From positions 2,232,001-2,296,000 of the forward strand of contig NZ_CP081150.1 of assembly GCF_019665765.1 (NCBI RefSeq): 64,000 nt of DNA, given 5' to 3'. The stretch comes from Deefgea tanakiae. Lineage in GTDB: Bacteria; Pseudomonadota; Gammaproteobacteria; Burkholderiales; Chitinibacteraceae. Both the position numbers and the translations under genes were made by a program. The notes under the pieces were generated by a model that did no database searches, was not told the origin of the DNA, and saw only the letters and a program-made list of their open reading frames with translations. Of the stretch, positions 14,101-55,492 are shown piece after piece; the stretch's first letter is position 1, and each line of letters opens with the position of its first letter.

Positions 14101-15136
14101 TTAAATTCGAAACAGTAAATCCGCACAGGCCTGCTTTAGGTTTAGAACCACGACCCGTCGCGCCTTCATCACGAATCTCGCCACCTGAGCCAGTTGCTGC
14201 ACCTGGGAATGGAGAAATCGCAGTTGGATGGTTGTGGGTTTCCACCTTCATCAGGATATGCGTTTCTTCTTGTGTGAACGCATACTCAGCACCATCGGCT
14301 GCTGGGAAGAAACGCTCAGTCAGCGCACCTTCGATCACTGATGAATTATCAGAATACGCCACCACCGTACCTTCTGGCGCGGCTTTATGCGTTTCGCGAA
14401 TCATGCCAAACAAACTGTAATCTTGTGCTTGGCCATCGATAATGAAATTAGCGTTAAAGATTTTATGACGGCAATGTTCTGAGTTCGCTTGAGCGAACAT
14501 CGTCAACTCAACATCACTTGGATTGCGACCAAGCTTGGTGAAGTTTTCTACCAAATAATCAATTTCATCTTCTGACAAGGCCAGACCGTATTCTGCATTG
14601 GCTTTTTCTAAAGCGGCTTTACCACCTTGTAATACGTCAACCGTTTCCAGCGCTTTAGGCTCAAAGTGACGGAACAATTCATTGCCCGCCGCCAAGCCCT
14701 CAAAAACTTGTTCTGTCATTCGATCGTGAATCAGTGGCAACAGAATATTTTTTTCTGCCGTAGATAGCGCAGAGCCATCGGCTTTAGTCGCATAAATCGC
14801 CATACCACGCTCAATGCGCGCCACTTTGCCTGCTAAACCACAGTGCAAAGCAATATCAGTAGCTTTCGATGACCAAGGCGAAATTGTACCTAAACGTGGC
14901 AGTACCAAAATCGGCGTACCGACTGCCAAAGCAATATTGGCTGGCTCGCCATAACTTAAAATACGCTCAACGACCATCTGGTCATCGCTCGATAAAGCTT
15001 GCTGTTGTTCAATAAAGTGCCAGAATTCGGCGTACAGATTGGCAGCAATGCCTTGCGCCGCGAGGCTAGCTACGAGTTTCTCAATCCGAAACGAAGAAAG
15101 TGCGGCACCGCCGCGAAGTTGGAGCACATCAACCAT
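11177..15136 (-). CDS. purL: Phosphoribosylformylglycinamidine synthase, single-chain form
   Basis: The 1319-residue enzyme converts FGAR plus glutamine and ATP to FGAM in purine synthesis. The N-terminus [20 protein letters not shown] matches proteobacterial PurL. Following motifs include [65 protein letters not shown] and, in the C-terminal glutamine amidotransferase domain, [11 protein letters not shown] (catalytic Cys near residue 1160) and MMPHPER (catalytic His). The length is that of the large fused enzyme. ATG at 15136 is chosen over an in-frame TTG at 15166. It is monocistronic, ends in its own terminator, and starts 37 bases from a divergent gene. Confidence 0.97.
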
Positions 15137-39771: not shown

Positions 39772-40086
39772 ATGTCGCTAATCACCCAACACTGTGTAGA
39801 TAAAACTGAAAAGCTCGATGCATTGGCCGCAGAGATGCTGTCGACTGAGCTGAATGATTGGATTATCGTCAACGATACGCTAGAAAAAACCTTTCGTTTT
39901 AAAAGCTTTCACGAAACAATGGCGTTTACCAATGCAGTGGCGTTTATCGCGCACCAGCAAGATCACCACCCTGATATCACACTGAGCTTTAGCCGCTGTA
40001 AATTGAGTTGGAATACCCATTCAGTGGGCGGCTTATCGCGCAATGACTTTATCTGCGCCGCGCGCGTCGATGCGATTTTTACTTAA
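39772..40086 (+). CDS. phhB: Pterin-4a-carbinolamine dehydratase
   Basis: The 104-residue protein begins MSLITQHCVDKTEKLDALAA. The family signature is in HQQDHHPDITLSFSRCKLSW with the HHPD motif and later THSVGGLSRNDF. It dehydrates 4a-hydroxytetrahydrobiopterin, supporting recycling of the pterin cofactor of phenylalanine hydroxylase; no phhA is nearby. GGAG seven bases upstream supports ATG 39772; an upstream ATG would add 13 unlikely residues. Confidence 0.92.
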   Translation: MSLITQHCVDKTEKLDALAAEMLSTELNDWIIVNDTLEKTFRFKSFHETMAFTNAVAFIAHQQDHHPDITLSFSRCKLSWNTHSVGGLSRNDFICAARVDAIFT

Positions 40087-40215
40087 ATTGGTTTTACTTA
40101 ATTTAATCTGCAACAGTTTTATGGCAAGGCGTGACACCGCAGACCGTACTCATTCGTACGACAAAGCGGAACAACGCGGCAAGAACACTTTTGCTAACCT
40201 CACTACAAAGGCCTC

Positions 40216-41100
40216 ATGAGCGAAACCGCCCGCATTGTTACTAGCTACGGCAAAGTCTATATCGTTGAACTGGCCGATGGTCGTCGCCTCTCCGCCTCGA
40301 CCCGCGGCAAAAAAACCGATTACGCCTGTGGTGATCAAGTCGATATCGACGTACTGAACGCCGAGCAAGCTGTGATCAATAAAGCCCTCAAACGCAAAAC
40401 GTTGCTGTATCGCTCGGATGCATGGCGCAGCAAAATGATCGCCGCCAATGTCACGCAGATTGTAATTGTCGTTGCGACCGAGCCGAGTTTTTCCGATGAA
40501 CTCATTAGTCGAGCGCTGATTGCGGCTGAGGCCGAAGGCATTCGCCCCGTGATTTGCTTAAACAAATGTGACCTCCCCGTCGCCGATGCCGCACGTTCGC
40601 GCTTGGCCTATTACACGGGTTTGGGCTATCCGGTGGTTGAAATCTCCGCAAAACAGGATTTAACACCACTAGAACCGTGGTTGGATGGTCAAGTTTCAGT
40701 TTTGGTTGGCCAATCAGGGATGGGAAAATCAACGATCACCAATGCGCTGATTCCCGACGCCAATGCGCGCGTCAAAGAAATCTCGACCGCGCTCGACTCA
40801 GGCAAGCATACGACAACCCACGCGCAGTTGTATAAATTAAACGCAACGTCTGAGTTGATCGATTCGCCGGGTTTGCAATCCTTTGGTTTAGCGCACATTA
40901 GCGTCGAAGAATTACCGCGTTTAATGCCCGATATGGCGCGGCATTTGGGCCAATGCCGTTTCCACAATTGCCGTCACCGCCAAGAGCCCGGCTGCGCCAT
41001 TCATGAAGCAATCGCAGCGGGCAGCATTGCGAACGAACGACTGGTTTTTCTACAACGCTTACAAGATGAACTCAGCGCTGCCGCGAGCTGCAAATACTAA
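40216..41100 (+). CDS. rsgA: Ribosome small-subunit biogenesis GTPase RsgA
   Basis: The 294-residue protein is a circularly permuted GTPase: G4 LNKCDLPV precedes G1 GQSGMGKSTI and G3 DSPGLQSFG. A C-terminal zinc cluster is CRFHNCRHRQEPGCAIHEAI. The N-terminal OB-fold region is present. It assists late 30S maturation. An AAAGG site precedes ATG. The gap upstream (40087-40215) shows only a small inverted repeat and no gene. Confidence 0.94.
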   Translation: MSETARIVTSYGKVYIVELADGRRLSASTRGKKTDYACGDQVDIDVLNAEQAVINKALKRKTLLYRSDAWRSKMIAANVTQIVIVVATEPSFSDELISRALIAAEAEGIRPVICLNKCDLPVADAARSRLAYYTGLGYPVVEISAKQDLTPLEPWLDGQVSVLVGQSGMGKSTITNALIPDANARVKEISTALDSGKHTTTHAQLYKLNATSELIDSPGLQSFGLAHISVEELPRLMPDMARHLGQCRFHNCRHRQEPGCAIHEAIAAGSIANERLVFLQRLQDELSAAASCKY

Positions 41101-41281
41101 ACCCCATCCCAAAGGGTATTCACTCCTAGGCATTTAGCAATATGACTCATAGGTGAATACCCCAACACCATCTGCAGTTGCAAAATTCCAACAGCCTCAC
41201 TACGAACGAACATTACTCGCAATATCATACTAGAATGCCTTGTGCGTCAGTTTTCTAACCCTAAACTCGATCTAGGCATTC

Positions 41282-44200
41282 ATGACTCCATCCTTTCCAT
41301 ACATCGCCGATCAAGTTGGTTTACCTATCTTGGGTCAACCCTACTTATTCAGCGACGCCAAGATGGCGACCTTTCTACTCGATAGCCAAGCTAGCGCACT
41401 TAATCAATTACTCGATACCTATATCAATCAGCCTTCAGAAGGCCAGTTTGAATACCGCTGCTTAGCCGTCAAGGGGCAAGCATTTAGTATTATGATTATG
41501 GCGCAGATGACCATCGACGCTAGCAATCCAACAGGCAAGGTCTATGGCAAAGAGCGTTATTCAGAATTGTCGTTTTGGATTCCTTGTTACGATCGCAAAG
41601 CCTTAGCACGCGGTGAATTTAAACCCGCACTATTCTTGCCATTTTTATTTCCTGATAGTTTCTCAGCGATCGCCACCGGCCGTGAAATGTTTGGTTTTCG
41701 CAAACAGCTCGCCGCGTTTAACTACCCTAACGGCGAGCTCAACGTTTGGCATCCGCAATTTACTGCCAGCACATGTGGTTTTAAAACGCTGGGCGCAGAC
41801 AGTATCGCTCAGCAATATGACTTTATTTCACTCCTTGCAGCTGAAAAAGATGAAACCGTCGCCGATTCAGCATGGCGCAGCACCAGCGAAGCCGCCACTG
41901 GAATGATCGAGCACCTGTTTGGCCAGCAATGGACCTGCGCCGAAACCGGCGAGGTATTAGGTGACATCCATGCGGATTTCCTTGCCAATTGCCCTGCGCT
42001 ATTTATCAAACAATTCCCAGCGATTGAAGGCGCGCAAAATGCCGAAGTACGTAGCATCGCCAGCGCACCCTTCCAATTGCAAGCATTTCATGGTGGTTTT
42101 CCATGGCTCAAAGGCCTAAGCCTTAAGCAATTCGATCTGCAATTAATGCGCCTAGCCAGCCACCCGATTGTGGCACAACTGGGTTTAACGCCAACGTCCA
42201 GCACGCCAGATGTGGATACCGTCAGCACCAAAGGATTTTGGGTTAACGTGGATTTCTCACTCGAAACAGGAAAAACACTACAGTCGATTAAGCCACCGAA
42301 ACAAAAAATCGCCATACTTGGCGGTGGTATTGGCTCTCTAAGCACGGCCTATGGGATTACCCAAGATCCAGACTGGCAGACCAAATATGACATCACCATT
42401 TACCAAATGGGTTGGCGACTGGGTGGCAAAGGCGCCAGTGGGCGCAATCGCGACATTGCCGATCGCATCGAAGAACACGGCCTGCATATTTGGTTTGGCT
42501 ATTACGACAATGCATTTGCACTCATTCAAAATTGCTATGCCGAACTAGCGCGTTCCAGCAATGCCCCGCTGGCAACTTGGGATCAGGCATTCAAACCGCA
42601 GAATACGATTGTTGTTGAAGAATATGTAAAAGAAGAATGGCGCACTTGGGCACTATCATTTAAGCCTGATAGTAAAGTTCCAGGTCAAGGCGACAGTAAA
42701 AGCGATCATCCGATTGGGTTTTTCGCCCACCTTCGCGAAGCACTGAGTGAACTGCATCAAGCGCTTCAGCAGCAAATCAGCCAATCAGACAGTGCACGGC
42801 AGGCAGCAGCACGCCACTTTACGCGTGGCGTGTCGCATACGGGGGAAAGCATTTTAGGTAAAGTGCTCGACGTGGTCGGTAAACCTGTTGAAATGGTAGT
42901 CGAACACGAAGTCGAGCGTGTATTTACGCAACTACAAAACCTCTATGAATCATTTCCTCTACGCAGTGAAATCGCCGCCCTATGCACCACACCAGCGCCA
43001 AGCCATTGGCTGGATGTGATTGCCGAAATCAAAGCGTTAGTTGAGCAAGTGCTGGCGCCTTTTGCCGAAATTTTCGATTCAATCCGCCGTATTTTCACGC
43101 TGGTCGATATCGCACTCGCCGTTGCCAAAGGCATTTTGGTCGACGGCGTCTTAATCAAAGGCTACACCGCAATCAATCAGTATGATTTTACCGAATGGTT
43201 GATCATTCACGGCGCCAGTGCTGATGCGGCTAATTCAGCCTTGGTGCGCGCGTTTTATGATTTGTATTTGGGTTTTCCAAATGGCGAGAATAAAATCGTT
43301 GGCGACGGCGTTGCTATTGGCGGCAATGTCTCGGCCGGGGAATTGTTACACAGCTATATTCTGGTGACGCTGTGCTACAAAGGCGCGGTAATGTGGAAGA
43401 TGCAAGCCGGCATGGGCGACGTAGTAATGACGCCAATCTATCAAGTGTTGAAACAGCGCGGCGTCAAATTTGAGTTTTTCAACAAGGTGACGGATTTACA
43501 TTTAAGCGCTGACCAACAGCAAATCTCCGCCATCGACATTGACGTACAAGCAACCTTAAAACCTAATATTGCCAGCTACAATCCGCTTTATGAGGTCAAA
43601 GGCTTGCCATGCTGGCCATCTACGCCACTGTACGAGCAACTCGAACAAGGTCAAGCGCTCAAAACGCAAGAAATTAATCTGGAATCAGCATGGAGCCCGT
43701 GGCCTGCTGTTGCGAAAAAAACGCTGCAATTAGGGCAAGATTTTGACCTTGTCGTACTTGGCATTTCAGTTGCCGCACTGCCGTTTATTACCGAAGAACT
43801 CAGCCAAGCCAACCCCGCTTGGCAAGCGATGCTCAATAATGCCGCCACCACGCAAACTCAGGCTATGCAGCTTTGGCTCAATATCAATCTAGAAGAAACC
43901 GGCTGGCCCTTAGCCAGCCCGATTCTGGATGCCTATGGCGAGCCGTTTAACACATGGGCGGCAATGGATCAAACGCTAGACAAAGAAAACTGGCCTCTGA
44001 ATCAACAGCCCTTTGGTATTGCCTACTTCTGCAACAATATGAAGGATGCTGAGCCTATACCCCCATTTAGCGACCATAGTTTCCCAGCGCAGCAAGAGGA
44101 GCGCGTCAAGCAAAGTGCAAAACAATGGCTTATGCAGTACATCGGTCATTTATGGCCCTATGCCACCCAAGCGAATGACAAGAGTCTAGATTGGTCTAAA

Positions 44201-44482
44201 TTGGTCGATTTGGAAAATCGGCAAGGTGAAGCCCGACTCGATGGACAATATTTCCGCGCGAACATTGATCCAACTGAACGCTATGTGTGCAACGCAGCCA
44301 ACACCAATCAATATCGGCTCAAGGTCGATCAATCAGGCTTTCGTAATTTATATTTGGCCGGTGATTGGGTAAATAATGAAGCGCTAAACTTAGGCTGCGT
44401 AGAATCCACCGTGATCTCAGGTTTACAAGCAGCGAGAGCCTTAAGTGGGTATCCATTAACAATTCATCATGAAACATTTTAA
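41282..44482 (+). CDS. Fusion of an acetoacetate-decarboxylase-like domain with a phytoene-desaturase-like FAD oxidoreductase
   Basis: The 1066-residue protein has two parts. Residues about 1-320 look like an acetoacetate-decarboxylase (ADC) domain, with TGREMFGFRKQLAAFNYPNG; Lys141 would be the Schiff-base lysine, and the following Lys of ADC is replaced by Gln here. From about residue 340 comes an FAD/NAD-binding oxidoreductase: GGGIGS at 347-352, EEHGLHIWFGYYDNAFAL, and at the C-terminus LYLAGDWVNNEALNLGCVES, as in phytoene-desaturase relatives. A 170-residue helical insert (about 480-650) is odd for either family. It could oxidise then process a hydrophobic substrate, but this is inference. 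The next gene starts 87 bases later. Confidence 0.75.
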   Translation: MTPSFPYIADQVGLPILGQPYLFSDAKMATFLLDSQASALNQLLDTYINQPSEGQFEYRCLAVKGQAFSIMIMAQMTIDASNPTGKVYGKERYSELSFWIPCYDRKALARGEFKPALFLPFLFPDSFSAIATGREMFGFRKQLAAFNYPNGELNVWHPQFTASTCGFKTLGADSIAQQYDFISLLAAEKDETVADSAWRSTSEAATGMIEHLFGQQWTCAETGEVLGDIHADFLANCPALFIKQFPAIEGAQNAEVRSIASAPFQLQAFHGGFPWLKGLSLKQFDLQLMRLASHPIVAQLGLTPTSSTPDVDTVSTKGFWVNVDFSLETGKTLQSIKPPKQKIAILGGGIGSLSTAYGITQDPDWQTKYDITIYQMGWRLGGKGASGRNRDIADRIEEHGLHIWFGYYDNAFALIQNCYAELARSSNAPLATWDQAFKPQNTIVVEEYVKEEWRTWALSFKPDSKVPGQGDSKSDHPIGFFAHLREALSELHQALQQQISQSDSARQAAARHFTRGVSHTGESILGKVLDVVGKPVEMVVEHEVERVFTQLQNLYESFPLRSEIAALCTTPAPSHWLDVIAEIKALVEQVLAPFAEIFDSIRRIFTLVDIALAVAKGILVDGVLIKGYTAINQYDFTEWLIIHGASADAANSALVRAFYDLYLGFPNGENKIVGDGVAIGGNVSAGELLHSYILVTLCYKGAVMWKMQAGMGDVVMTPIYQVLKQRGVKFEFFNKVTDLHLSADQQQISAIDIDVQATLKPNIASYNPLYEVKGLPCWPSTPLYEQLEQGQALKTQEINLESAWSPWPAVAKKTLQLGQDFDLVVLGISVAALPFITEELSQANPAWQAMLNNAATTQTQAMQLWLNINLEETGWPLASPILDAYGEPFNTWAAMDQTLDKENWPLNQQPFGIAYFCNNMKDAEPIPPFSDHSFPAQQEERVKQSAKQWLMQYIGHLWPYATQANDKSLDWSKLVDLENRQGEARLDGQYFRANIDPTERYVCNAANTNQYRLKVDQSGFRNLYLAGDWVNNEALNLGCVESTVISGLQAARALSGYPLTIHHETF

Positions 44483-44503
44483 CTAGCGCATTCAAAACGC
44501 ATG

Positions 44504-44530
44504 CGAGGCTCGCGCTGGTGCGCAGCCTCG
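44504..44530 (+). terminator. Strong hairpin without T-tract between the fusion enzyme and the giant kinase
   Basis: CGAGGCT-C-GCGC-TGGT-GCGC-AGCCTCG forms an 11-pair stem with one bulged base. No T run follows, so it is not a classical terminator. It may be an attenuator or processing site between two cotranscribed genes. Confidence 0.4.
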
Positions 44531-44568
44531 TCAAGCTGGTTCACGTACCCCAAAAGTAAGGTTCCAAG

Positions 44569-47500
44569 ATGCTGACATTTCCCGCTTACCGCTTGCGCGA
44601 TCAACTGCACGACAGTGAACACTCCAGTGTGTATCGCGCTATTGATGAGCGGGATTCATCGCTGGTTGTACTGAAGTTTTTTGGAAAATCGAATCCATCG
44701 CATCACCATATCGCGCGCTTCAAGCGCGAATATGCCATCGCTCAGCGACTCATTCATCCGAATATTTCCCGACCATTGGCGCTAACACAACATGATTCGC
44801 GCTGGATCATGATTATGGAAGATCAGCAGGGGCTTTCACTAAATCAACATCCGCGCCTAAAGCAAGGTCAGCCGATTGATCTCAAATCGTTTTACGACAT
44901 CGCACTCCAGCTTTGCGATGCACTGCAATTCATTCATCAAAACAAGATCATCCACAAAGACATTAATCCAGCCAATCTGTGCTGGAATGATGCGACGCGC
45001 CAGCTGCAAGTGATTGACTTTGGTGTGGCCAGCGAATTGGGCCAAGAAACGCCACTGATTCAAAATCCACAGACCATTGAAGGTACGCTGGCGTATATGT
45101 CGCCAGAGCAAACGGGGCGGATGAATCGCATCGTCGATTATCGGTCGGATTATTATTCGCTGGGCGTCACCCTCTATGAATTGCTGACGGGGAAAACACC
45201 GTTTACCAGCTTAGATGCAATGGAAATGGTTCACTGCCATTTGGCGCGCACACCGGATTGGTCTTTGGCGCAATTCAAAAACCTACCACCGCATTTGCTG
45301 ACCATTTTGCAACGCTTGCTCGAAAAAAATGCCGAGGCTCGCTATCAAAGTTTGAATGCCTTAATCAACGATCTAAAACACTGCCAAGCTCAATCACTGC
45401 AACTCCCAATGGCAGGTCATCAAGATGCAGGTCTGAGCGACCATAGCGGCGTCTTTCATATTCCACAAAAACTCTATGGCCGCGAGCAAGACGCTCAAGT
45501 GTTAATGGATGCGTTTGATCGGGTCTGCCTTGGGCAAAGTGAAATGCTGCTCGTGGCGGGGTTTTCTGGGATTGGGAAGTCAGCCGTCGTCAATGAAATT
45601 CAGCGCGCCATCGTCGCGCGACGTGGCTACTTTATTGCGGGTAAATTTGATCAATACCAGCGCAACACGCCCTACTCGTCGCTCATTCAAGCTTTTCAAG
45701 ATTTAATCCGCCAATTGCTCAGCGAACCCCGTGCACAACTGGATCAATGGGCTACGCGAATTCGCGCCGCATTAGGCAGCCATGCTGGCGTAATCACGCA
45801 ACTCATTCCAGACCTTGCGCTAATCATCGGCGCTAGCGAGTCCGTTGCCGAGCTGCCGCCACTGGAATCGCAAAATCGGCTCAACCGTTTATTCGAGCGT
45901 TTTGTCCAAGTGTTCTCCAGCGAGGAACATCCGCTGGTGATCTTTCTCGATGACTTACAGTGGGTTGACCAACCTACATTAAAATTGATTGAGTGGAGTA
46001 TGCGCGACGCTGATAAGCGCTACTTGCTTTTAATCGGAGCTTACCGTGATAACGAAGTCGACGCGGCGCATCCCCTGATTGCATTGCGGGACGATTTACT
46101 CAAACGCCAAGTCACACTCCACACACTCAACTTAGCCCCATTACAGCCAAACCATGTGAATGAGCTGGTTGCCGATACTTTGCATATGCCAATGGCTCAC
46201 TGCCAAACGCTGGCACAGCTCTGTTTTGATAAAACACAGGGCAATCCATTTTTCCTCAATCAATTCTTAAGCACGATTCATGAGTTGGCGTATCTGAGTT
46301 TTGATTTTGAGCACAATCAGTGGGTTTGGGATGTGGCAAGCATTGAAAAAGCTGACTTCACCGATAATGTTGTTGAATTGATGATCAGTAAAATTCGTCG
46401 CCTACCTGAGCTCACTCAACAGCTTTTGCAATTAGCCGCCAGTATCGGCAATCGCTTTGATCTGTGCACGCTGGCAACGGTCTGCAAACTCACTCCTTAC
46501 CAAACCCAAGTAGGTCTTTGGCCTGCTTTGCAAAGCGAACTGATACTACCTTTAGATCAACACTACAAATATTTACTCGAAGACGAAACGAAACCACAAA
46601 TTAGTTACCGCTTTCTGCACGACCGTGTACAGCAAGCTGCCTACGCATTAGCCAGTGATGAACAAAAACAACTGCATCACCTCAGCATTGGCCGCTTACT
46701 ATTATGCAATGCACCCAGCGGACAAGTTGAAGATCAATTATTCACGATCATCGAGCAATTTAATGCGGGGCGCGCACTCATCAGTGATCCTGATGAGCGT
46801 ATTGCTATCGCTCACCTGAATTTACAAGCGGGGCTCAAAGCACGAACCTCCGCCGCCTACCAAGCCGCATTTCACCACTTACAAATTGGCTTAAGTCTGC
46901 TACCGGCGGACTGCTGGCAAGCATGCCCTCAACTCACGCTGGATTTACATATTGGTGCCGCAGAAAGTGCCTACCTCTCTGGCGATTTTGTGAGTGCAGA
47001 ACGAATCTACCCAGTGGTTCTTCGTAATTGCACAGGGGTATTGAACCAAATCCGTTGCTATACAATACAAGCAAGCCAATACCAGCTAGAAGGTCGCTTC
47101 TTAGAAGCCATCGCCATTCAGCGTACTGGTCTACAGCTACTAGGCTCTATGATTCCGACTGAGGATGCGGACTTATTAAAAGAGGTAGGGCAAGGCTTTA
47201 GCGATATCGCCAATTTAAGTGCCCATCGCTCCATGGCCGAGCTGATGCAAGCCAAATCGATGAGCGACCCCGAGCAACTTGCCGCGATGCAATTGCTGTT
47301 TGGCATGTGGTACGCCAGCTATCTGGCAGGATTACCTAATTTAAATGCAGTGACGACGACGACGATGACTCGGCTTTCGCTGCAAGCGGGTCATTGCGAT
47401 ATTTCGCCTTTTGCCTATGTCAATTACGCTTTTATCGTGGCGTTTATATTGCAGCAATACGATGTCGCTGAACAATTTGGTGCAACCGCCATTGAGCTTG

Positions 47501-50500
47501 CCAATGCACAACGCAATTTGGCCATTCGCGGCAGCACGCATTTTCTGTTCGCAACCTTCACCAATTACTGGACTAAGCCACTAGCCACTTCCAATACCTA
47601 CTACGACGATGCTTATACTTGGAGTCTAGAAAGCGGCGATTTTGCTACCGTGGGTTATATTGTGGCCGTTCGCTCGACCGACCGTGTTATCCAAGGACAA
47701 AACCTCACCGAGCTATTGGCGAGTTGTGAACGCGATATTTTGCTACTGACTAGCACTGGTCAGCAGGATATGGTCGATTGCACCAGCGTGGGTACCGTGC
47801 AATCAATCAAAAATCTACAGGGTCAAACACGGCATGCAGCAACGTATGACGATGCTGATTTTAGTGAAGAACAGTTCCTCCTCGAATATGCCAGCAAGCC
47901 CTTACATCTGGCCTATTTCTATCATGGAAAAATCCGTAATGCATATTTATTTGATACCGACTATGCAGATGAACTAGCAGAAAAACTCGCTCTCGTTGAA
48001 CAATATGTACCTGGCCAATGCAAAATTCCAGAGGCTACTTTTTATACTGCACTCATTCGGCTGCGCACCCTGCTACGCCATCCGGCACACGATGAATACG
48101 GTACGATTCATGCACAAGTAGCGCAATTGAATGAGCGATTTATCGCTTGGGCACAGCAATGCCCTGCTAATTTTTCCACGCAATCACTGCTGATCCAGGC
48201 GCAACTGGCCCAATTAAATGGTGATACGGCCAGCGCAATTTCACTTTACCCTCTGGCCATCGCCGCAGCTAAAAGCAATCATTACGTCAATTTGGAAGCG
48301 CTCGCCAATGAATTGTACGGCCAATTCTGGCTCGCTCAACAACAAGAACGAATTGCCGAGGTCTTCTTACGTGATGCTTTGCACCTGTATCGCGCGTGGG
48401 GGGCGGAAGGCAAAGCCATTCAACTACAAAGTCGATACGCTGAACCTGCGCCAATCTCACGCACAAAAGGTCACAAAAGTACGTCAATGACGAGCCCCTC
48501 AGGGACCGCCAATACTGCCATAGGTAGCGTTAATTATCTTGATCTTACGTCCATTCTGAAGGCGAACCATGCACTATCAAGCGAAGTTGCATTAAGCCCT
48601 GTTTTGGCCAAGCTATTGGGCATCGTGAAGGAAAACTCTGGCGCACAAACCGTACGCTTATTTCTCAGCAACTCTAGCCGGAAAGAAGCAAGCGAAGAAT
48701 GGTATTTAGAAGGTGAAGCGTCTGCCAATAAGGTGGACGTGTTGCAATCACAAGCGATTGCACTCAATGGGCTGAGTAGCCCGCTATTGCCGCTCTCTTT
48801 ATTGCGCTATGTGGTTCGTAGTGGCAACGAAGTGATTGAAGAAAATATCAGTAGTTCAGAAAATTACGCCATGGATCCTTATGTCTTGGCGAAACACCCT
48901 AAATCTGTGATGTGCCTACCAATAATGCGGTTTTCACAAGTCATTGGCGTGTTGTACTTAGAAAACAATCTAGCAGCAGGCGCATTCACCCAAGAACGAG
49001 TAGAGTTTCTCAGAGTGCTAGCGGTGCAAGCACTGATTTCAATTGATAACGCACGACTCTACGACAACCTAGAACGCCAAGTGGCTGAACGCACAGCCAA
49101 TCTCAATCAAACGTTGCTTGAGCAACAAGCCATTTTCGACAATACCGTCATCGGCATTGCCTTTGTCAAAGACCGTGTCGTACAACGCTGCAATGCGGGC
49201 TTGGCAAAGTTGTTTGGCTACGAGCGTGAAGAAGTCATCGGGCAAGCAACTCGGATGTTTTATGCCAGTGATGAAGAGTCTGAACAATCCGCCAAAGTCA
49301 CTTATGCCCAAGTGATGCAAGGTGGCTACCACACCGATTTACAATTAGTTGATAAACAAGGCCGCCAGATTTACTGCGAAATCCACGCCCGTTTGCTCGA
49401 TAACCTGCATCCAGAGCAAGGCATCATCATCACCATTCAAGATATTTCGGAGCGAAAACTTAGCGAGCATGCCTTAGCAGAAGCCAAAGTGCGTGCAGAG
49501 GAAGCAACGCAAGCCAAATCGATGTTCCTTGCGAATATGAGCCATGAAATTCGCACGCCGATGAATGCCGTCATGGGCATGAGCCGTTTGGCATTAAAAA
49601 TCGCCAATGACGATAAACTGCGTAATTATCTACAAAAAATTGTTATTTCTGCCGAAAATCTACTCGGTATCATTAATGATATTTTGGATTTTTCTAAAAT
49701 TGAGGCTGGTAAACTCGAAATTGAAACCATTCCTTTCCAATTAGACGACCTACTCAATCCACTCTCTGATTTAATGATGTTGCGCACCGAAACAAAAGGC
49801 GTTGAAGTTATTTTTCGTATTGCTCCCGATGTACCGCAACAACTCATCGGTGATCGATTACGTTTAAGTCAGGTGCTAAATAATCTTGCTAGCAATGCGA
49901 GTAAATTCACCGAACAGGGTGAAATTGTGCTCGACATCCGTGTTGAGGCGCAGCAACACGACCGTGTGACACTACGCTTCACCCTCAGCGACACCGGCAT
50001 CGGCATGAGCCCAGCGCAAATGGCCTCCCTCTTCCAATCCTTCACCCAAGCAGACAGCTCAATTACCCGCAAATACGGTGGGACCGGCTTAGGCCTCAGC
50101 ATTAGCAAGCAATTGGTTGAAATGATGGGCGGTGAACTCACTGTCGGCAGCACACTCGGCCAAGGCAGTACTTTCCGCTTCACCTTGGAATTGGGTATCG
50201 AAGCAAGCCAATTAGTCAATATGGCGCAGCACTACACACCTCAGCGGGTCTTAATCGTTGATGACCATGCGGTTGCACGCGAGGTATTGGCCGATATGGT
50301 TCGTTCATTCGGCGCCGAAGTTTTGCTTGCGGACTCAGGAAGAACGGCCTTAGATACCTTAATGATTGCCGCCAAGACTGAACAGCCGATTGATTTGGTC
50401 TTGATGGATTGGCAAATGCCTGATTGGGATGGTATTGAAACGATCGAACGTATACGCGCCGAGAGCATGCTTAACAACACACCCCCAGCAATACTCATGG

Positions 50501-51723
50501 TCAGCGCGTATTCACAAGACGAAATCATACGGCAAGCACAGCGAGTAAAATTAGATGGGTTCCTCGTAAAGCCAGTCAGTCGCGCCTTGCTGCAAGCCCA
50601 TTTCATACTACTGACTGCCCCTGGCTCACCCAATTTTGCACAGTCAAAAACGATAGAATCCGAGCTGAAATCAATCATCAAACTTGATGGCGCTCGCATC
50701 TTATTGGCTGACGACACTGAATTTAATCGAGAGATTGTATTCGGGATACTAGGCGAAGCACGCATCAGCATCGATATAGCTGAAAATGGCCAAATCGCAC
50801 TCGAAAAAGTACAATCCACTCACTATGATTTGATCTTGATGGACATCCAAATGCCTGTGATGGACGGCCTGAGCGCAAGTCGTGCCATTCGCCAGTTGGG
50901 CCTGAATTTGCCGATTATTGCGATGACGGCCCACGCGATGGTAGGAGATCGCGACGCCAGTTTAGCGGCAGGCATGAATGCACATATTACGAAGCCGATA
51001 AATGCAGACGAATTAATCCAAACTTTACAACATTGGATTCCCCAACAACAGCTCGTAAATCGAGTTATCCCTGCACAACTCGAGTATCAATACTCAAGCA
51101 TGACTGCATCAGCCCCGCCCACCAGCAACTTAGGGATCGATTTAACTGTCGCGCTTAAACTGCTTGGAGGAAATCAAAATTTACTCCAGCGTTCGTTGAT
51201 TATTTTTGCGCGGGATTATGGTGCAGCGGGTTTGATTGTTGGAGAGGCTTTGGAAGAAAACGACTTTAAGCGCATTGCCGACAATGCGCATGCCGTCAAA
51301 TCTGCCGCGGCATATTTGGGAGCAACACAGCTCTCAAGCAGTGCGGCGGCACTAGAAACCGCCATTCGAGTGGAGAAAAATGCAGAAATCCCAGAGCGAG
51401 TCAGCCATTTTCAGCAGCAACTTGCAATTACACTGAATGCGATTACTCAAACGATAAGGGTTGCCCCAACGTCATCACCTCATGCAAACAGCTATAATAT
51501 CTCCCAAGCTTTGCTCCAGCTCGAGGCTCTCGTTCCTCTTATCCGAACAGGCAATTTTGCCGCTAATCGTCAGCTTGACGAACTAAACAAATCATTAGCA
51601 ACCCGCTGGCAAGCGCAAATGAGTGAAATTAGCCGCTTATTTGACTATATGGAAACGGACGCAGCGATTGCGGCGCTCTTTGAACTACAAAATGCACTGC
51701 GTTCCGAGCTAGACACACTATGA
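44569..51723 (+). CDS. Giant hybrid kinase: Ser/Thr kinase, AAA ATPase, GAF, PAS, histidine kinase, two receivers, Hpt
   Basis: The 2384-residue protein has, in order: a Ser/Thr kinase (VVLKFF Lys near 36; HKDINPANL at about 129; DFG at about 149; MSPEQ at about 177); an AAA-type ATPase (Walker A GFSGIGKSA near 331, Walker B VIFLDDLQWVD near 457) with TPR-like helices to about 1300; GAF (about 1325-1490); PAS (about 1520-1625); HisKA (SHEIRTPMNAVMG, His1659); HATPase (DTGIG near 1808, GGTGLGLS near 1837); receiver 1 (Asp1947), receiver 2 (Asp2092, LMDIQMPVMDG); and Hpt (His2241 in AHAVKSAAAYLG). All key residues are present. This trifunctional architecture is known in cyanobacteria and some proteobacteria. 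The stop overlaps the next start, so the response regulator is coupled. Confidence 0.9.
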   Translation: MLTFPAYRLRDQLHDSEHSSVYRAIDERDSSLVVLKFFGKSNPSHHHIARFKREYAIAQRLIHPNISRPLALTQHDSRWIMIMEDQQGLSLNQHPRLKQGQPIDLKSFYDIALQLCDALQFIHQNKIIHKDINPANLCWNDATRQLQVIDFGVASELGQETPLIQNPQTIEGTLAYMSPEQTGRMNRIVDYRSDYYSLGVTLYELLTGKTPFTSLDAMEMVHCHLARTPDWSLAQFKNLPPHLLTILQRLLEKNAEARYQSLNALINDLKHCQAQSLQLPMAGHQDAGLSDHSGVFHIPQKLYGREQDAQVLMDAFDRVCLGQSEMLLVAGFSGIGKSAVVNEIQRAIVARRGYFIAGKFDQYQRNTPYSSLIQAFQDLIRQLLSEPRAQLDQWATRIRAALGSHAGVITQLIPDLALIIGASESVAELPPLESQNRLNRLFERFVQVFSSEEHPLVIFLDDLQWVDQPTLKLIEWSMRDADKRYLLLIGAYRDNEVDAAHPLIALRDDLLKRQVTLHTLNLAPLQPNHVNELVADTLHMPMAHCQTLAQLCFDKTQGNPFFLNQFLSTIHELAYLSFDFEHNQWVWDVASIEKADFTDNVVELMISKIRRLPELTQQLLQLAASIGNRFDLCTLATVCKLTPYQTQVGLWPALQSELILPLDQHYKYLLEDETKPQISYRFLHDRVQQAAYALASDEQKQLHHLSIGRLLLCNAPSGQVEDQLFTIIEQFNAGRALISDPDERIAIAHLNLQAGLKARTSAAYQAAFHHLQIGLSLLPADCWQACPQLTLDLHIGAAESAYLSGDFVSAERIYPVVLRNCTGVLNQIRCYTIQASQYQLEGRFLEAIAIQRTGLQLLGSMIPTEDADLLKEVGQGFSDIANLSAHRSMAELMQAKSMSDPEQLAAMQLLFGMWYASYLAGLPNLNAVTTTTMTRLSLQAGHCDISPFAYVNYAFIVAFILQQYDVAEQFGATAIELANAQRNLAIRGSTHFLFATFTNYWTKPLATSNTYYDDAYTWSLESGDFATVGYIVAVRSTDRVIQGQNLTELLASCERDILLLTSTGQQDMVDCTSVGTVQSIKNLQGQTRHAATYDDADFSEEQFLLEYASKPLHLAYFYHGKIRNAYLFDTDYADELAEKLALVEQYVPGQCKIPEATFYTALIRLRTLLRHPAHDEYGTIHAQVAQLNERFIAWAQQCPANFSTQSLLIQAQLAQLNGDTASAISLYPLAIAAAKSNHYVNLEALANELYGQFWLAQQQERIAEVFLRDALHLYRAWGAEGKAIQLQSRYAEPAPISRTKGHKSTSMTSPSGTANTAIGSVNYLDLTSILKANHALSSEVALSPVLAKLLGIVKENSGAQTVRLFLSNSSRKEASEEWYLEGEASANKVDVLQSQAIALNGLSSPLLPLSLLRYVVRSGNEVIEENISSSENYAMDPYVLAKHPKSVMCLPIMRFSQVIGVLYLENNLAAGAFTQERVEFLRVLAVQALISIDNARLYDNLERQVAERTANLNQTLLEQQAIFDNTVIGIAFVKDRVVQRCNAGLAKLFGYEREEVIGQATRMFYASDEESEQSAKVTYAQVMQGGYHTDLQLVDKQGRQIYCEIHARLLDNLHPEQGIIITIQDISERKLSEHALAEAKVRAEEATQAKSMFLANMSHEIRTPMNAVMGMSRLALKIANDDKLRNYLQKIVISAENLLGIINDILDFSKIEAGKLEIETIPFQLDDLLNPLSDLMMLRTETKGVEVIFRIAPDVPQQLIGDRLRLSQVLNNLASNASKFTEQGEIVLDIRVEAQQHDRVTLRFTLSDTGIGMSPAQMASLFQSFTQADSSITRKYGGTGLGLSISKQLVEMMGGELTVGSTLGQGSTFRFTLELGIEASQLVNMAQHYTPQRVLIVDDHAVAREVLADMVRSFGAEVLLADSGRTALDTLMIAAKTEQPIDLVLMDWQMPDWDGIETIERIRAESMLNNTPPAILMVSAYSQDEIIRQAQRVKLDGFLVKPVSRALLQAHFILLTAPGSPNFAQSKTIESELKSIIKLDGARILLADDTEFNREIVFGILGEARISIDIAENGQIALEKVQSTHYDLILMDIQMPVMDGLSASRAIRQLGLNLPIIAMTAHAMVGDRDASLAAGMNAHITKPINADELIQTLQHWIPQQQLVNRVIPAQLEYQYSSMTASAPPTSNLGIDLTVALKLLGGNQNLLQRSLIIFARDYGAAGLIVGEALEENDFKRIADNAHAVKSAAAYLGATQLSSSAAALETAIRVEKNAEIPERVSHFQQQLAITLNAITQTIRVAPTSSPHANSYNISQALLQLEALVPLIRTGNFAANRQLDELNKSLATRWQAQMSEISRLFDYMETDAAIAALFELQNALRSELDTL

Positions 51724-52619
51724 GCGAACAACAAAAAATTTTGGTTGTCGATGATTCAGCGAGTAATCGACAATTATTAGGTGAGCTATTGCAAGCGGAC
51801 TATACCGTGCTATTGGCAAAAAATGGCGAGCAAGCCTTGCTCCGCGCGCGTGAGCAACTGCCCGATTTAATCTTGCTCGATGTCATGATGCCAGAGATGG
51901 ACGGTTATGAAGTGCTGCAATTACTCAAAGCCGATCCAGATACAGCACCGATTGGCGTTATTTTCATTACCGGCTTAGACACACCCGATGACGAAGAACG
52001 CGGCCTCTTAATGGGGGCGTCTGATTATATTGCCAAGCCATTCCATCCTGCAGTTGTTAAAGCGCGTGTCTCGGTACATATGCAAGTGGCGCGCCAACGC
52101 CGAATGCTAGAAACGCTAGCCAACATTGATGCATTGACGGAACTGCCCAATCGACGTCAGCTCGATGCCGTATTAGCAGCTGAATGTTCTCGTGCGGGAC
52201 GGACAGGCAATCCATTATCAGTTGCGATTTTAGATGTCGATTATTTTAAACTGTATAACGATTATTATGGCCATGCGATGGGGGATCGGGTTCTGCAAAC
52301 CATTGCGAGCGTGCTAAATGGCAAAATGAAACGCCCTAGCGATTTAGCGGCGCGCTATGGCGGTGAAGAGTTCGTACTCATTATGCCCGACACCTTACTT
52401 GAGGGCGCACTTGAGGTTGCCAACAAGCTTTGCAGCGCCATCGCAGCACTACAAATCCCACATGAAAAATCAAGAGACTATGCGTGTGTCACCGTGAGTA
52501 TTGGCGTCGCCAGTGGCACTGTAAACGTACCGCCAACAGCCGAGAGTCTATTGCAAGTCGCCGATGCGCGCCTTTATCGTGCGAAAGCGGCTGGTCGAAA
52601 TCGGGCTCTAGCGACCTAA
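51720..52619 (+). CDS. Response regulator-diguanylate cyclase (REC-GGDEF)
   Basis: The 299-residue protein has an N-terminal receiver (KILVVDDSASNRQLLGELL, acceptor Asp54 in LLDVMMPEMDG, Lys in IAKPFHP) and a GGDEF domain with GGEEF at 214-218. RPSD at 205-208 is five residues upstream, so the I-site is intact. It resembles PleD/WspR-type outputs, made active by phosphorylation and dimerisation. Its start ATGA overlaps the stop of the giant kinase, whose Hpt domain is the likely phosphodonor. It would turn the upstream signal into c-di-GMP. Confidence 0.92.
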   Translation: MSEQQKILVVDDSASNRQLLGELLQADYTVLLAKNGEQALLRAREQLPDLILLDVMMPEMDGYEVLQLLKADPDTAPIGVIFITGLDTPDDEERGLLMGASDYIAKPFHPAVVKARVSVHMQVARQRRMLETLANIDALTELPNRRQLDAVLAAECSRAGRTGNPLSVAILDVDYFKLYNDYYGHAMGDRVLQTIASVLNGKMKRPSDLAARYGGEEFVLIMPDTLLEGALEVANKLCSAIAALQIPHEKSRDYACVTVSIGVASGTVNVPPTAESLLQVADARLYRAKAAGRNRALAT

Positions 52620-52655
52620 TCGCAGCACACCATAAATATGATGGCACGTATCTGC

Positions 52656-53198
52656 TCACAGCCTACGTTTACGCTTAGCTATAGACCAATACACCCAAAG
52701 CCGCCAAACGACATGCACAGAAAAATACGCCATCACCGCCAGTAAGGCAGCCAATAAAGGTAAGCCAATCAGCAAAGGCGCGCCCAATGACTGCATCCAA
52801 GCCCACATCGCCCACATCCAGTCCCCCAGATTCAAGGCAGAAAACGAGGGCATCAAAACAGTCACTTTCGCTCCAGCGAGGCCCGACACCCAAGCACCAA
52901 GCTGATAAGCCAACCAGTAAATGGGGCCAATCGTTAATGGATTGGTGTAGAAAGTCCCCAAAATCGCCACTGGCAAATTGACGCGAAAAATCAGGCACAG
53001 AATGCATGAGGTAATCACTTGTAAAGGACCGGGGATCAAGCCGCCAATCATCCCCACCGCTAAACCACCTGCAACCGATTTACGATTTAAATGAAATAAA
53101 TTCGGATGTTCAAACCAATGCGCAAAGCGGCTCAAAAAGCGGTTTTGCAGCATCGTTTGGTGATCTGGCAACCAGCGTCGTAAATATTTGCGGGGCAT
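52656..53198 (-). CDS. DUF2062 membrane protein
   Basis: The 180-residue protein has a basic N-terminus (MPRKYLRRWLPDHQTM) and membrane segments, with AGGLAVGMIGGLIPGPLQVI and GTFYTNPLTIGPIYWLAYQL, the DUF2062 motif. Function is unknown. It converges on the response regulator and is divergent from relA, 92 bases away. Confidence 0.82.
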   Translation of the reverse strand: MPRKYLRRWLPDHQTMLQNRFLSRFAHWFEHPNLFHLNRKSVAGGLAVGMIGGLIPGPLQVITSCILCLIFRVNLPVAILGTFYTNPLTIGPIYWLAYQLGAWVSGLAGAKVTVLMPSFSALNLGDWMWAMWAWMQSLGAPLLIGLPLLAALLAVMAYFSVHVVWRLWVYWSIAKRKRRL

Positions 53199-53290
53199 TC
53201 GGCACTTTTCTCGTTAATTTAGCTATGACAGACTGCATTATTGTCGCAAAATTCAATTATTCACTTCAGCAAATAGATAAATAAATAATC

Positions 53291-55492
53291 ATGGTTGCCG
53301 TAACTCGCCCGCTTGCCCAATCCATCGCTGAAGCCGCTGATCCTGATCGCTGGCTGATTGCCCTTTCTGAGCGTTATCCGCCGCAGGACATCACTCGCCT
53401 GAGGGAGGCGCTTGATTGGGCTGCTGAGTTATATGGCAACTCACTCAATCCCGACACACAAACCTCACTATTTTTGCATTCGGTTGCCAGTGCATCCATC
53501 GTGGCGGATTTGCGCATGGACGCGAACGCCGTAATCGCAGCGCTACTATTTTGCGTTCCTGACAAACTCAGTAACGCGTCCGAACAAATCAATAAACGCT
53601 TTGGCACGACCGTTGCTGCATTGGTCGATGGCATTTTGAAAGTCCGGCAGCTGCGGCAGCTAGCTCAACCACAACAGGGCAAAGCCGAAGACTACGCACA
53701 GCAAGTCGAAGCGCAACGCAAAATGTTGCTCGCGATGGTTGAAGACATTCGTGCGGTGCTGATTAAACTTGCGTGGCGCACGCAAACGATGCATAGCTTG
53801 GCGAATGTGCCCGAAGAGCTGCGCCGTATTATTGCCCGCGAAACGTTGGATTTATTTGCGCCACTGGCCAATCGTTTGGGCGTCTGGCAAATTAAATGGG
53901 AGCTGGAAGACTTAGGTTTCCGTTACCTACATACCGAAACCTATAAGAAAATCGCTAAATTGCTTGATGAGCGCCGCGTGGACCGTGAGCAATTCATTGG
54001 CGATGTGATTGGTAAGCTACGCAGTGAACTCGCCCTTGCTGGCGTAAACCATGTCGACCTGATGGGGCGACCTAAACACATCTACAGCATCTGGAAAAAG
54101 ATGCAGAAAAAGAAGCTCGACTTTTCTGAGCTCTACGATATTCGCGCGGTGCGTGTCTTAGTCGATGATGTGAAAGATTGCTATACCGTACTGGGAATTG
54201 TGCATAACTTGTGGCAGCCTATTCCAGGTGAATTTGACGATTACATTGCACAACCCAAAGGTAACTTTTATCGCAGTCTGCATACCGCAATCATAGGCCC
54301 GCAAGACAAAGCCGTCGAAGTACAAATCCGTACTTTTGATATGCATGAGCACGCCGAGTTCGGCGTCGCCGCGCACTGGCGCTACAAAGAAGGCGGCAAA
54401 GGCGACTCACGTTACGAAGAAAAAATCGCATGGCTACGACAATTACTAGATTGGCGCGAAGATGTCGCCTCTGAAGCTGATTTTTCAGATGCATTTAAGG
54501 CTGAGTTATTCGACGACACCATCTATGTGCTAACCCCTGCTGGGCGTGTGATTTCATTGCCCAAAGGCAGTACCGCAGTCGATTTTGCTTATCACCTACA
54601 CACCGATCTGGGTCATCGTTGCCGTGGGGCGAAGGTCAATGGCGCAATTGTGCCGCTCGGAACACCGCTAGAAAATGGCCAGCGCATAGAGATTCTGGCC
54701 GCTAAAACGGGTGGTCCTAGTCTCGATTGGTTACATCAAGGCTATATTAAAAGCCATCGCGCGCAGCAAAAAGTAAGGCACTGGATTCGTCAGCAGCATC
54801 TTGATGTGGCTATAGAAGCCGGTCGTGCCCTGTTTGATAAAGAATCATCCCGCGCCGGTGCCAATAATATTAGCCATGAACTCATTGCACAAAAGCTAGG
54901 CTACAAAGAAATCGAGGACGTATTTGCTGCGCTGGGCCAAGGCGAATGCTCGTTACGTGCATTGTCGATTGCATTTAATGAGTCACTTGCTCCCGTTGAA
55001 TTACCGGACGAACCCGAAGACTTCGTCAAAACCGCACGTGCCAATCAAAGTGGCGAAGGCATTTTAATTGAAGGCATCGACAAGCTGATGACGATGCTCG
55101 CCAAATGCTGCAAACCCGTACCCCCCGACCAAGTAATGGGTTTTGTTACCAAAGGGCGCGGTATTTCAATCCATCGCACCGATTGCCTCACCCTTAAACG
55201 ATTAGCAATTGAAGCACCTGAGCGCTTAATTAAGGCAGACTGGGGAAAATCCAGCGGGCACGTATTCTCGGTCGATATTTTAGTTGAGACGCTAGAACGG
55301 CCAAGTATGTTGCGGGATTTATCCGACGTGATGGTGCGCGATAAAATCAATGTCACTGCGGTGCATACACAAAATAAAGATGCCCGATCACAAATGCGCT
55401 TTACGATCGAAATTAAAGATAGCGAGCAATTGCAAAAAGTTTTTGTCCGCCTCAAAGATGTTCAAGGCGTAATTAGAGTGTCACGACTTTAG
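53291..55492 (+). CDS. relA: (p)ppGpp synthetase RelA
   Basis: The 733-residue protein has an N-terminal HD-like domain without the catalytic HD pair (LFLHSVASASIVADLRMDAN), a synthetase domain (SELYDIRAVRVLVDDVKDCY, PGEFDDYIAQPKGNFYRSLH) with the ExDD motif near 314-317 typical of RelA rather than SpoT (RxKD), a TGS domain (FDDTIYVLTPAGRVISLPKG), a CC zinc-finger-like part (MLAKCCKPVPPDQVMGFVTK) and a C-terminal ACT domain (DILVETLERPSMLRDLSDVM). It should make (p)ppGpp on ribosomes during amino-acid starvation but not hydrolyse it; a separate bifunctional SpoT is expected elsewhere. Confidence 0.95.
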   Translation: MVAVTRPLAQSIAEAADPDRWLIALSERYPPQDITRLREALDWAAELYGNSLNPDTQTSLFLHSVASASIVADLRMDANAVIAALLFCVPDKLSNASEQINKRFGTTVAALVDGILKVRQLRQLAQPQQGKAEDYAQQVEAQRKMLLAMVEDIRAVLIKLAWRTQTMHSLANVPEELRRIIARETLDLFAPLANRLGVWQIKWELEDLGFRYLHTETYKKIAKLLDERRVDREQFIGDVIGKLRSELALAGVNHVDLMGRPKHIYSIWKKMQKKKLDFSELYDIRAVRVLVDDVKDCYTVLGIVHNLWQPIPGEFDDYIAQPKGNFYRSLHTAIIGPQDKAVEVQIRTFDMHEHAEFGVAAHWRYKEGGKGDSRYEEKIAWLRQLLDWREDVASEADFSDAFKAELFDDTIYVLTPAGRVISLPKGSTAVDFAYHLHTDLGHRCRGAKVNGAIVPLGTPLENGQRIEILAAKTGGPSLDWLHQGYIKSHRAQQKVRHWIRQQHLDVAIEAGRALFDKESSRAGANNISHELIAQKLGYKEIEDVFAALGQGECSLRALSIAFNESLAPVELPDEPEDFVKTARANQSGEGILIEGIDKLMTMLAKCCKPVPPDQVMGFVTKGRGISIHRTDCLTLKRLAIEAPERLIKADWGKSSGHVFSVDILVETLERPSMLRDLSDVMVRDKINVTAVHTQNKDARSQMRFTIEIKDSEQLQKVFVRLKDVQGVIRVSRL

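Follow-up and report, generated by a model that had tools for sequence, protein, structure and literature searches.

The genome of Deefgea tanakiae is a single contig of 3.56 Mb, of which we analysed the 64,000 nucleotides at positions 2232001-2296000 (the window; all coordinates below are counted from its first letter). Three genes follow one another in the same direction between rsgA (40216-41100) and a convergent DUF2062 gene on the minus strand (52656-53198): a fusion of an acetoacetate decarboxylase (ADC)-like domain with a flavin adenine dinucleotide (FAD) oxidoreductase, a hybrid histidine kinase, and a REC-GGDEF diguanylate cyclase. All three plus-strand reading frames are open where an initial annotation of this DNA had placed them. 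The enzyme of this trio recurs beside sensor genes in distant taxa, and it is this pairing, and what it may mean for signalling through cyclic di-GMP (c-di-GMP), that concerns us here.

The enzyme, kinase and cyclase of the Deefgea locus

The fusion (41282..44482, plus strand, 1066 amino acids) was delimited by its open reading frame, Pfam and profile matches, and begins with the ADC-like domain (residues 1-325; 41282..42256, plus strand), recognised by alignment A3 and a profile match to ADC structures in PDB. On the fusion Pfam reports NAD_binding_8, and the match to the ADC family PF06314 falls below the gathering cut-off (23.1 against 29.8 bits), which is passed by the C-terminal domains of two other enzyme loci, L087 and L110 (34.5 and 35.5 bits). 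The ADC assignment made initially is supported by the family profile, which matches the solved acetoacetate decarboxylase 3bgt (E 1.1e-5), and by lysine K141 (41702-41704, plus strand), which is invariant in all 16 rows of alignment A3 and aligns with the lysine of 3bgt and 3c8w. As in PF06314, the lysine of the motif GRExxGxxK thus aligns with the GfpK lysine of solved ADCs; the Deefgea domain differs in being longer and fused to a flavoenzyme, and the residue after the lysine is not itself lysine in the 21 of 25 family matches that fit the lysine motif pattern. Modelled alone with AlphaFold, the ADC-like domain reached a mean pLDDT of 37, a model unusable for judging its fold; in the model of the whole fusion the FAD part was usable and the N-terminal third was not.

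The C-terminal FAD domain (42293..44467, plus strand) is phytoene-desaturase/HpnE-like and carries the motifs GGGIGSL at residue 347, YQMGWRLGGKGASGR at 374, RIEEHGLHIWFG at 395 and NLYLAGDW at 1022. Single-sequence searches of PDB with the ADC-like and FAD domains gave no match, whereas profile searches with both did. Because the FAD part matches the whole amine-oxidase/PPO/PDS superfamily, with protoporphyrinogen oxidases superposing equally well, the substrate of the enzyme is not readable from its fold. Its scores lie far below the equivalog cut-offs of plant-type phytoene and zeta-carotene desaturases and of HpnE (HpnE 41.1 of 283, TIGR02732 26.9 of 622 and TIGR02731 18.5 of 569 bits), from which the FAD enzyme also differs in its length of ~730 amino acids, its long insert and the ADC-like domain fused to or paired with it in most loci. 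Oleate hydratase/MCRA was rejected as a candidate, as the PF06100 match (25 bits, cut-off 23) spans just 48 residues and NF010584 scores 25 of 567.

The kinase (44569..51723, plus strand, 2384 amino acids) combines a Ser/Thr kinase (STK) domain (Pfam Pkinase, residues 17-263; 44617..45357), an AAA_16 ATPase of STAND type (301-489; 45469..46035), a stretch at residues ~560-1320 that has no Pfam match and that we infer to be TPR-like, a GAF domain (1345-1491; 48601..49041), a PAS domain (1533-1628; 49165..49452), HisKA and HATPase_c (1649-1875; 49513..50193), two receiver domains (50257..51027; the first boundary approximate, the second receiver at 2044-2153) and an Hpt phosphotransfer domain (2225-2286; 51241..51426), all on the plus strand; apart from the TPR-like stretch these were assigned by Pfam, the receivers also by motifs. 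Besides the AAA_16 domain of this kinase, the genome has no AAA_16 match at E<=1e-12. The motifs VVLK, HKDINPAN, DFG, GFSGIGKS, LVIFLDD, SHEIRTP, DTGIGM and GGTGLGL and both receiver aspartate motifs are intact; the Hpt histidine pattern was unmatched in the kinase, so the Hpt assignment follows Pfam. The cyclase (51720..52619, plus strand, 299 amino acids; open reading frame, Pfam REC and GGDEF, motifs) overlaps the kinase by the four bases 51720-51723, as first described, and retains an intact RPSD-x5-GGEEF (~52332-52373, plus strand), in which we take GGEEF to be the active site and RPSD the inhibitory I-site (RxxD). It thereby has the GG(D/E)EF motif, REC input and I-site of REC-GGDEF cyclases, and the catalytic residues initially reported for kinase and cyclase, judged by their motifs, appear to be in place. 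PleD itself was rejected as its identity (NCBIfam PleD 262, cut-off 474). The cyclase is 91% and 85% identical in sister species, and 48% in the loci L107 and L144 of another order.

Both signalling proteins are of known types. With the HstK/cbSTKIII cyanobacterial kinases, as outlined in part of PMC2176072, the Deefgea kinase shares an N-terminal Ser/Thr kinase, a GAF domain and a C-terminal histidine kinase in one protein, and Pfam places Pkinase, GAF, HisKA and HATPase_c in that order in its single polypeptide; relative to the kinases outlined there, it additionally has two receivers and an Hpt domain, overlaps a REC-GGDEF partner translationally and adjoins an enzyme gene. Homologues on Nostoc plasmids are 36-40% identical to it. 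TOMM kinase/cyclase fusions resemble it in kinase architecture and biosynthetic context, and their model TIGR03903 matches the STAND-type region at residues 302-745, but at 151.8 bits against a cut-off of 705.75, and the Deefgea kinase has no cyclase domain.

Conservation of the trio within Deefgea

The closest named relatives found, by fusion enzyme, are Deefgea chitinilytica (93%) and D. rivuli (85%). While rsgA is present in all seven Deefgea genomes searched, fusion, kinase and cyclase occur together in three, where the block between rsgA and the DUF2062 gene (41101..52655 in the window, strand not assigned) is whole, and the fusion was not found in the other four, in which the two flanking genes lie ~80 bp (G201, G203, G205) or ~1 kb (G204) apart. 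Since it is whole in three genomes, and the fusion is absent and the flanks nearly joined in the others, the trio behaves as one block; it holds no further gene. In each trio-bearing genome the single AAA_16 match is the kinase of the trio. Each of the four trio-less genomes (loci L054-L057, from G201, G204, G203 and G205) has a different STK-AAA-histidine kinase protein of ~2053 amino acids, which is the best match to the Deefgea kinase over the AAA region (32%), and it is possible that one STAND kinase was exchanged for another among these genomes.

The enzyme recurs beside sensor genes

The enzyme is patchily distributed. It was detected in 20 of 399 genomes of Deefgea's order and 3 of 274 in a class sample (both E<=1e-40), and, at 1e-50, in 5 of 398 in a phylum sample, 3 of 247 around a Bacteroidetes metagenome-assembled genome and 12 of 341 in another order, each tally counting the genome of the query or centre itself. 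We read the neighbourhoods of 49 enzyme loci with iterated profiles, leaving the window itself out of the count: seven from relatives (two of them Deefgea), eleven from a set with its own genome omitted, four of 11 plasmid records (the seven unused being further Azospirillum records), nine from the order and class samples, six from the phylum and Bacteroidetes samples, and 12 in 11 genomes of another order. Full flanks were available in 42 loci; in the other seven, one flank was under 2.5 kb.

An AAA_16 (STAND), 7TMR-DISM or hybrid-kinase gene lies within 2.5 kb of the enzyme, mostly within 250 bp, in 36 of the 49 loci (AAA_16 in 20, 7TMR-DISM in 15 and a hybrid kinase in one), corresponding to 34 of the 42 loci with full flanks and to 24 of 33 genus-level groups, and such adjacency is seen in both Pseudomonadota and Bacteroidota. 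In five of the 13 sensor-less loci (L023, L093, L095, L097, L154) the contig stops close to the enzyme. L022, L035 and L108 each have a winged-helix (Trans_reg_C)-TPR regulator on the strand of the enzyme and at most ~70 bp upstream of it, and L109 has a TIR-TPR protein beside an ADC gene; counting these two classes post hoc would give 40 of 49 (38 of 42 with full flanks), and we retain 36 as the headline value. Conservation as neighbours, chosen beforehand as the test of the initial annotation, was thus observed both in the block kept by all three enzyme-bearing Deefgea among the seven searched and in the adjacency in distant taxa. What is conserved is the pairing of enzyme and signalling gene, not the particular pair of ADC-FAD fusion and trifunctional kinase that had been envisaged, as receptors vary and the fusion is not obligatory: the models found ADC in 35 of 49 loci, to which Pfam adds L087 and L110, and, depending on the locus, it is a protein of its own, sits at the opposite end of the fusion or goes undetected.

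Adjacency of this kind could arise without functional meaning if enzyme and signalling genes were independent cargo of variable genomic islands, as the all-or-none presence of the trio at one site in three of seven Deefgea genomes, the location of several relatives on plasmids and the patchiness of the enzyme within the order would allow. The enrichment is, however, confined to the first 500 bp: AAA_16 genes reach 36 per 100 kb (17 genes) within 500 bp of the enzyme cluster, 0.5 (one gene) at 2.5-5 kb and none at 5-7.5 kb, and DISM genes 27.7, 0.9 and 0.5 per 100 kb over the same distances. The 33 enzyme-bearing genomes hold 46 AAA_16 matches (E<=1e-12) in ~134 Mb, and 14 of these genomes, in ten genus-level groups, have one within 2.5 kb of the enzyme, where 0.08 would be expected by chance with a 7 kb target per genome and randomly placed AAA_16 genes; nine of the 14 have no AAA_16 match other than this neighbour. 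One DISM receptor family, moreover, stays beside the enzyme in two orders. The enrichment speaks strongly against pure chance, and with only a shared bias of unrelated cargo left to rescue it, we regard hitch-hiking as very improbable.

The architecture of the Deefgea signalling pair recurs in L107 and L144, from two families of another order of the same class, where an FAD gene is divergent from an STK-AAA-histidine kinase-REC gene followed directly by a REC-GGDEF gene. As their FAD enzymes are 56% identical to each other, the two may represent one event. No ADC gene was detected in the fetched flanks of either. Beside the FAD enzyme in these two loci and three others lies a further protein of ~300 amino acids (L144 11537-12355, L107 8255-9190, L112 8075-8947, L111 8049-8984, L088 12171-13148), with 61 invariant columns in five rows, no Pfam match in any of the five and no NCBIfam match in the three tested, which may replace the ADC domain in loci where none was detected.

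Among the 15 enzyme-near 7TM-DISM domains, 14 form one family across two orders and Paraglaciecola, 13 of them being 31-80% identical to that of L026 over ~320 residues; three more distant DISM copies in the same loci reach only 20-27%. The outputs of the 14 receptors swap between GGDEF (seven loci) and histidine kinase-REC (seven loci). Because one receptor family keeps its place while its outputs change, we favour, for these 14, a common cue linked to the enzyme. On a Qingshengfaniella plasmid (L087 9899-16715), an FAD-ADC protein, an adenylate cyclase-AAA protein and a Crp/Fnr regulator stand in a row, possibly a self-contained cyclic AMP (cAMP) circuit. In a quick enzyme tree the STAND, DISM and sensor-less classes need eight changes, with five rows ungrouped.

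Neighbouring genes also hint at the chemistry. Five loci from a single enzyme clade (L033, L091, L094, L109, L153) have, together with the FAD and ADC genes, a polyprenyl synthase (by Pfam in L033, L109 and L153, by clustering in L091 and L094) and a saccharopine-dehydrogenase-like oxidoreductase, a gene set that would suit a longer pathway of isoprenoid type. L153 also has a PhyH dioxygenase and a TIR-AAA_16 protein, and L109 a leukotriene-A4-hydrolase-like peptidase with its TIR-TPR protein. In L098 an RPE65/carotenoid-cleavage-type oxygenase (13363-14820) lies directly behind FAD-ADC-FAD genes; its best NCBIfam match is apocarotenoid-cleaving (157 of 675, far under the cut-off), followed by lignostilbene oxygenases. 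FadL-type outer-membrane proteins adjoin the enzyme in Azospirillum (annotated) and in L029, L030 and L095, which belong to one genus. Together with the desaturase-like fold, these neighbours point to a lipophilic, perhaps isoprenoid compound, and hint that the substrate may be isoprenoid-like. The FAD-ADC gene of G012 (L029 8592-11765) is interrupted by stops and is open in its relative G060 (L030).

A proposed enzyme-receptor cassette

On balance, and with little more confidence than doubt, we propose that one small compound, probably an isoprenoid or another lipophilic molecule, is handled by both the FAD enzyme and the adjoining sensor, and that in Deefgea the product of the enzyme is wired to c-di-GMP. 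This common compound is what we infer from the observed gene order, intact motifs and co-occurrence. Oxidation, desaturation or isomerisation of the compound would fall to the FAD domain, and lysine 141 would serve the ADC-like domain in cleaving or condensing a keto intermediate. The kinase of Deefgea would recognise the product (the substrate being a less likely ligand), most probably with its AAA-TPR part, and this binding would set off the ATP switch. From histidine 1659, once phosphorylated, the phosphoryl group would travel by way of both receivers and Hpt to the receiver of the REC-GGDEF protein whose gene overlaps that of the kinase, raising c-di-GMP. Sensing of the enzyme's product or redox state by GAF or PAS had been suggested initially; the TPR-like region of the kinase, or the 7TM receptor elsewhere, is at least as likely a site. 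In other genomes the same enzyme would be wired to class III (cAMP-type) cyclases, 7TM-DISM-GGDEF proteins, DISM histidine kinases or winged-helix-TPR regulators.

A rival reading is regulation by the substrate: the sensor could detect the substrate of the enzyme, or a related nutrient, and control expression of the enzyme pathway, with the enzyme making no signal. MalT-type STAND activators adjoin catabolic operons and provide a precedent for such a local regulator, and the winged-helix-TPR regulators immediately upstream of the enzyme in L022, L035 and L108 and the Crp/Fnr gene behind the L087 cyclase are consistent with it, as are the divergent enzyme/sensor pairs (L107, L144, L114, L088, L145, L146, L148 and L150-L152), which fit a shared control region. 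In Deefgea and many other loci, however, the output is a second-messenger enzyme or phosphorelay rather than a DNA-binding protein, so that any control of the neighbour would be indirect, and the seven DISM-GGDEF loci have enzyme and receptor in convergent orientation, with no common promoter. Because outputs are mostly second messengers and phosphorelays, product sensing is preferred by a small margin, and regulation by substrate is possible but rather unlikely.

STAND-type ATPases can also be read as pathogen sensors, with the enzyme as effector of a stress or antiphage device. The TIR-AAA_16 protein of L153 and the TIR-TPR protein of L109 would suit such a device, and the kinase domain matches the PADLOC kinase profiles PD-T4-6 and mads_6. 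Yet the kinase has 37 PADLOC matches, of which the 25 listed are confined to its Ser/Thr kinase domain, no PADLOC model is matched by the enzyme at E<=0.001, outputs elsewhere include DISM-GGDEF and DISM-histidine kinases, and the Deefgea block has no further gene; we consider a defensive role highly improbable. The cyclase has three weak PADLOC matches.

Several observations weigh against the proposed cassette. Four fully flanked loci (L029, L086, L094, L096) gave no sensor match to the models within 2.5 kb, although an annotated diguanylate cyclase lies ~2 kb upstream in L086. As a reverse control, the fetched flanks of 17 STK-AAA loci chosen independently of the enzyme contained it in none; set beside the 14 of 33 genomes above, this suggests that the enzyme draws sensors from a broad, generic family. 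Likewise, two further genomes of the family to which Deefgea belongs (L156, L157) have a kinase of STK-AAA-histidine kinase-REC type and a REC-GGDEF protein together, without the enzyme, and the kinase-cyclase pair is thus a module of its own. A ligand region shared by enzyme-linked STAND kinases was sought and found no support, their sensor regions being no closer to that of Deefgea than those of unlinked kinases; the linked kinases do not form one clade (four changes on an unresolved backbone, which would still accommodate one origin). The 15th DISM receptor (L112) aligns at 26% over 209 residues only, and part of a review predicts that 7TMR-DISMED2, where present, senses carbohydrates (PMC8846402). 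On the enzyme side, the lysine motif pattern is missing in four of 25 ADC matches (two in L109, one each in L091 and L094). Polyprenyl synthase occurs in only five of 49 loci and RPE65 in only one, and neither of these nor a FadL-type gene was seen beside the Deefgea block.

The reverse-control set includes a Microvirga plasmid (L115 11703-15811) on which a trifunctional kinase lies near a 3-hydroxybutyrate dehydrogenase, a patatin, an annotated acetoacetate decarboxylase and an FAD oxidoreductase. The latter two, the oxidoreductase having 400 amino acids, are 2-4 kb from the kinase and do not match the enzyme models; this is perhaps a parallel association.

The nearest functional precedent for an enzyme-receptor cassette is the Rpf/DSF (diffusible signal factor) system (RpfF synthase, RpfC hybrid kinase, RpfG; RpfR), with which the Deefgea locus shares the adjacency of genes for an enzyme that modifies lipids, a hybrid histidine kinase containing REC and Hpt domains, and a response regulator that metabolises c-di-GMP. 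The Deefgea fusion, in contrast, has no crotonase (RpfF-type) Pfam match at E<=0.001, its response regulator is a REC-GGDEF cyclase rather than an HD-GYP protein, its kinase is an STK-AAA protein, and the partner receptors of the enzyme vary across genomes. DSF and RpfR are treated in part of the review PMC8846402. Every component belongs to a known type; narrow searches of the open-licence PMC literature found no description of this enzyme family being paired systematically with interchangeable receptors.

To our knowledge, most large STAND kinases and cyclases and 7TMR-DISM receptors have no known ligand. One enzyme family beside many such orphan receptors therefore offers an experimental handle, in that its compound could be tested on the neighbouring receptor. 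Were the compound isoprenoid, it would bring new chemistry of bacterial signalling tied to cAMP and to c-di-GMP, the biofilm messenger. More speculatively, and we think doubtfully, the ADC/FAD family might make a new class of isoprenoid- or apocarotenoid-derived signal, with one synthase and genome-specific receptors in Pseudomonadota and Bacteroidota and a c-di-GMP readout in Deefgea; if so, it would constitute a modular synthase-receptor system spanning both phyla.

Other features of the Deefgea locus

Downstream, the DUF2062 gene is followed by a presumably RelA-like gene, a name that we read from its sequence. Rfam gave no match at gathering scores across 40000-53400, and a scan for promoters and terminators returned counts no higher than in shuffled sequence. 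The gap between enzyme and kinase, previously given as 87 bases, measures 86 (44483-44568) and contains a hairpin (~44499-44536, plus strand, by folding). The hairpin itself stands, as does the lack of a T-tract terminator, none lying directly behind it in the window; its description as strong is tempered by a folding energy of the gap (-28.2 kcal/mol, z -2.1) only moderately above chance, with six of 200 shuffles folding as well. The same gap also folds in the two sister species (L018 13199-13283, z -4.8; L019 13205-13300, z -2.5), and the three hairpins differ in sequence although the flanking proteins are 76-93% identical. They may serve in processing or attenuation, or may be the scar of a mobile element.

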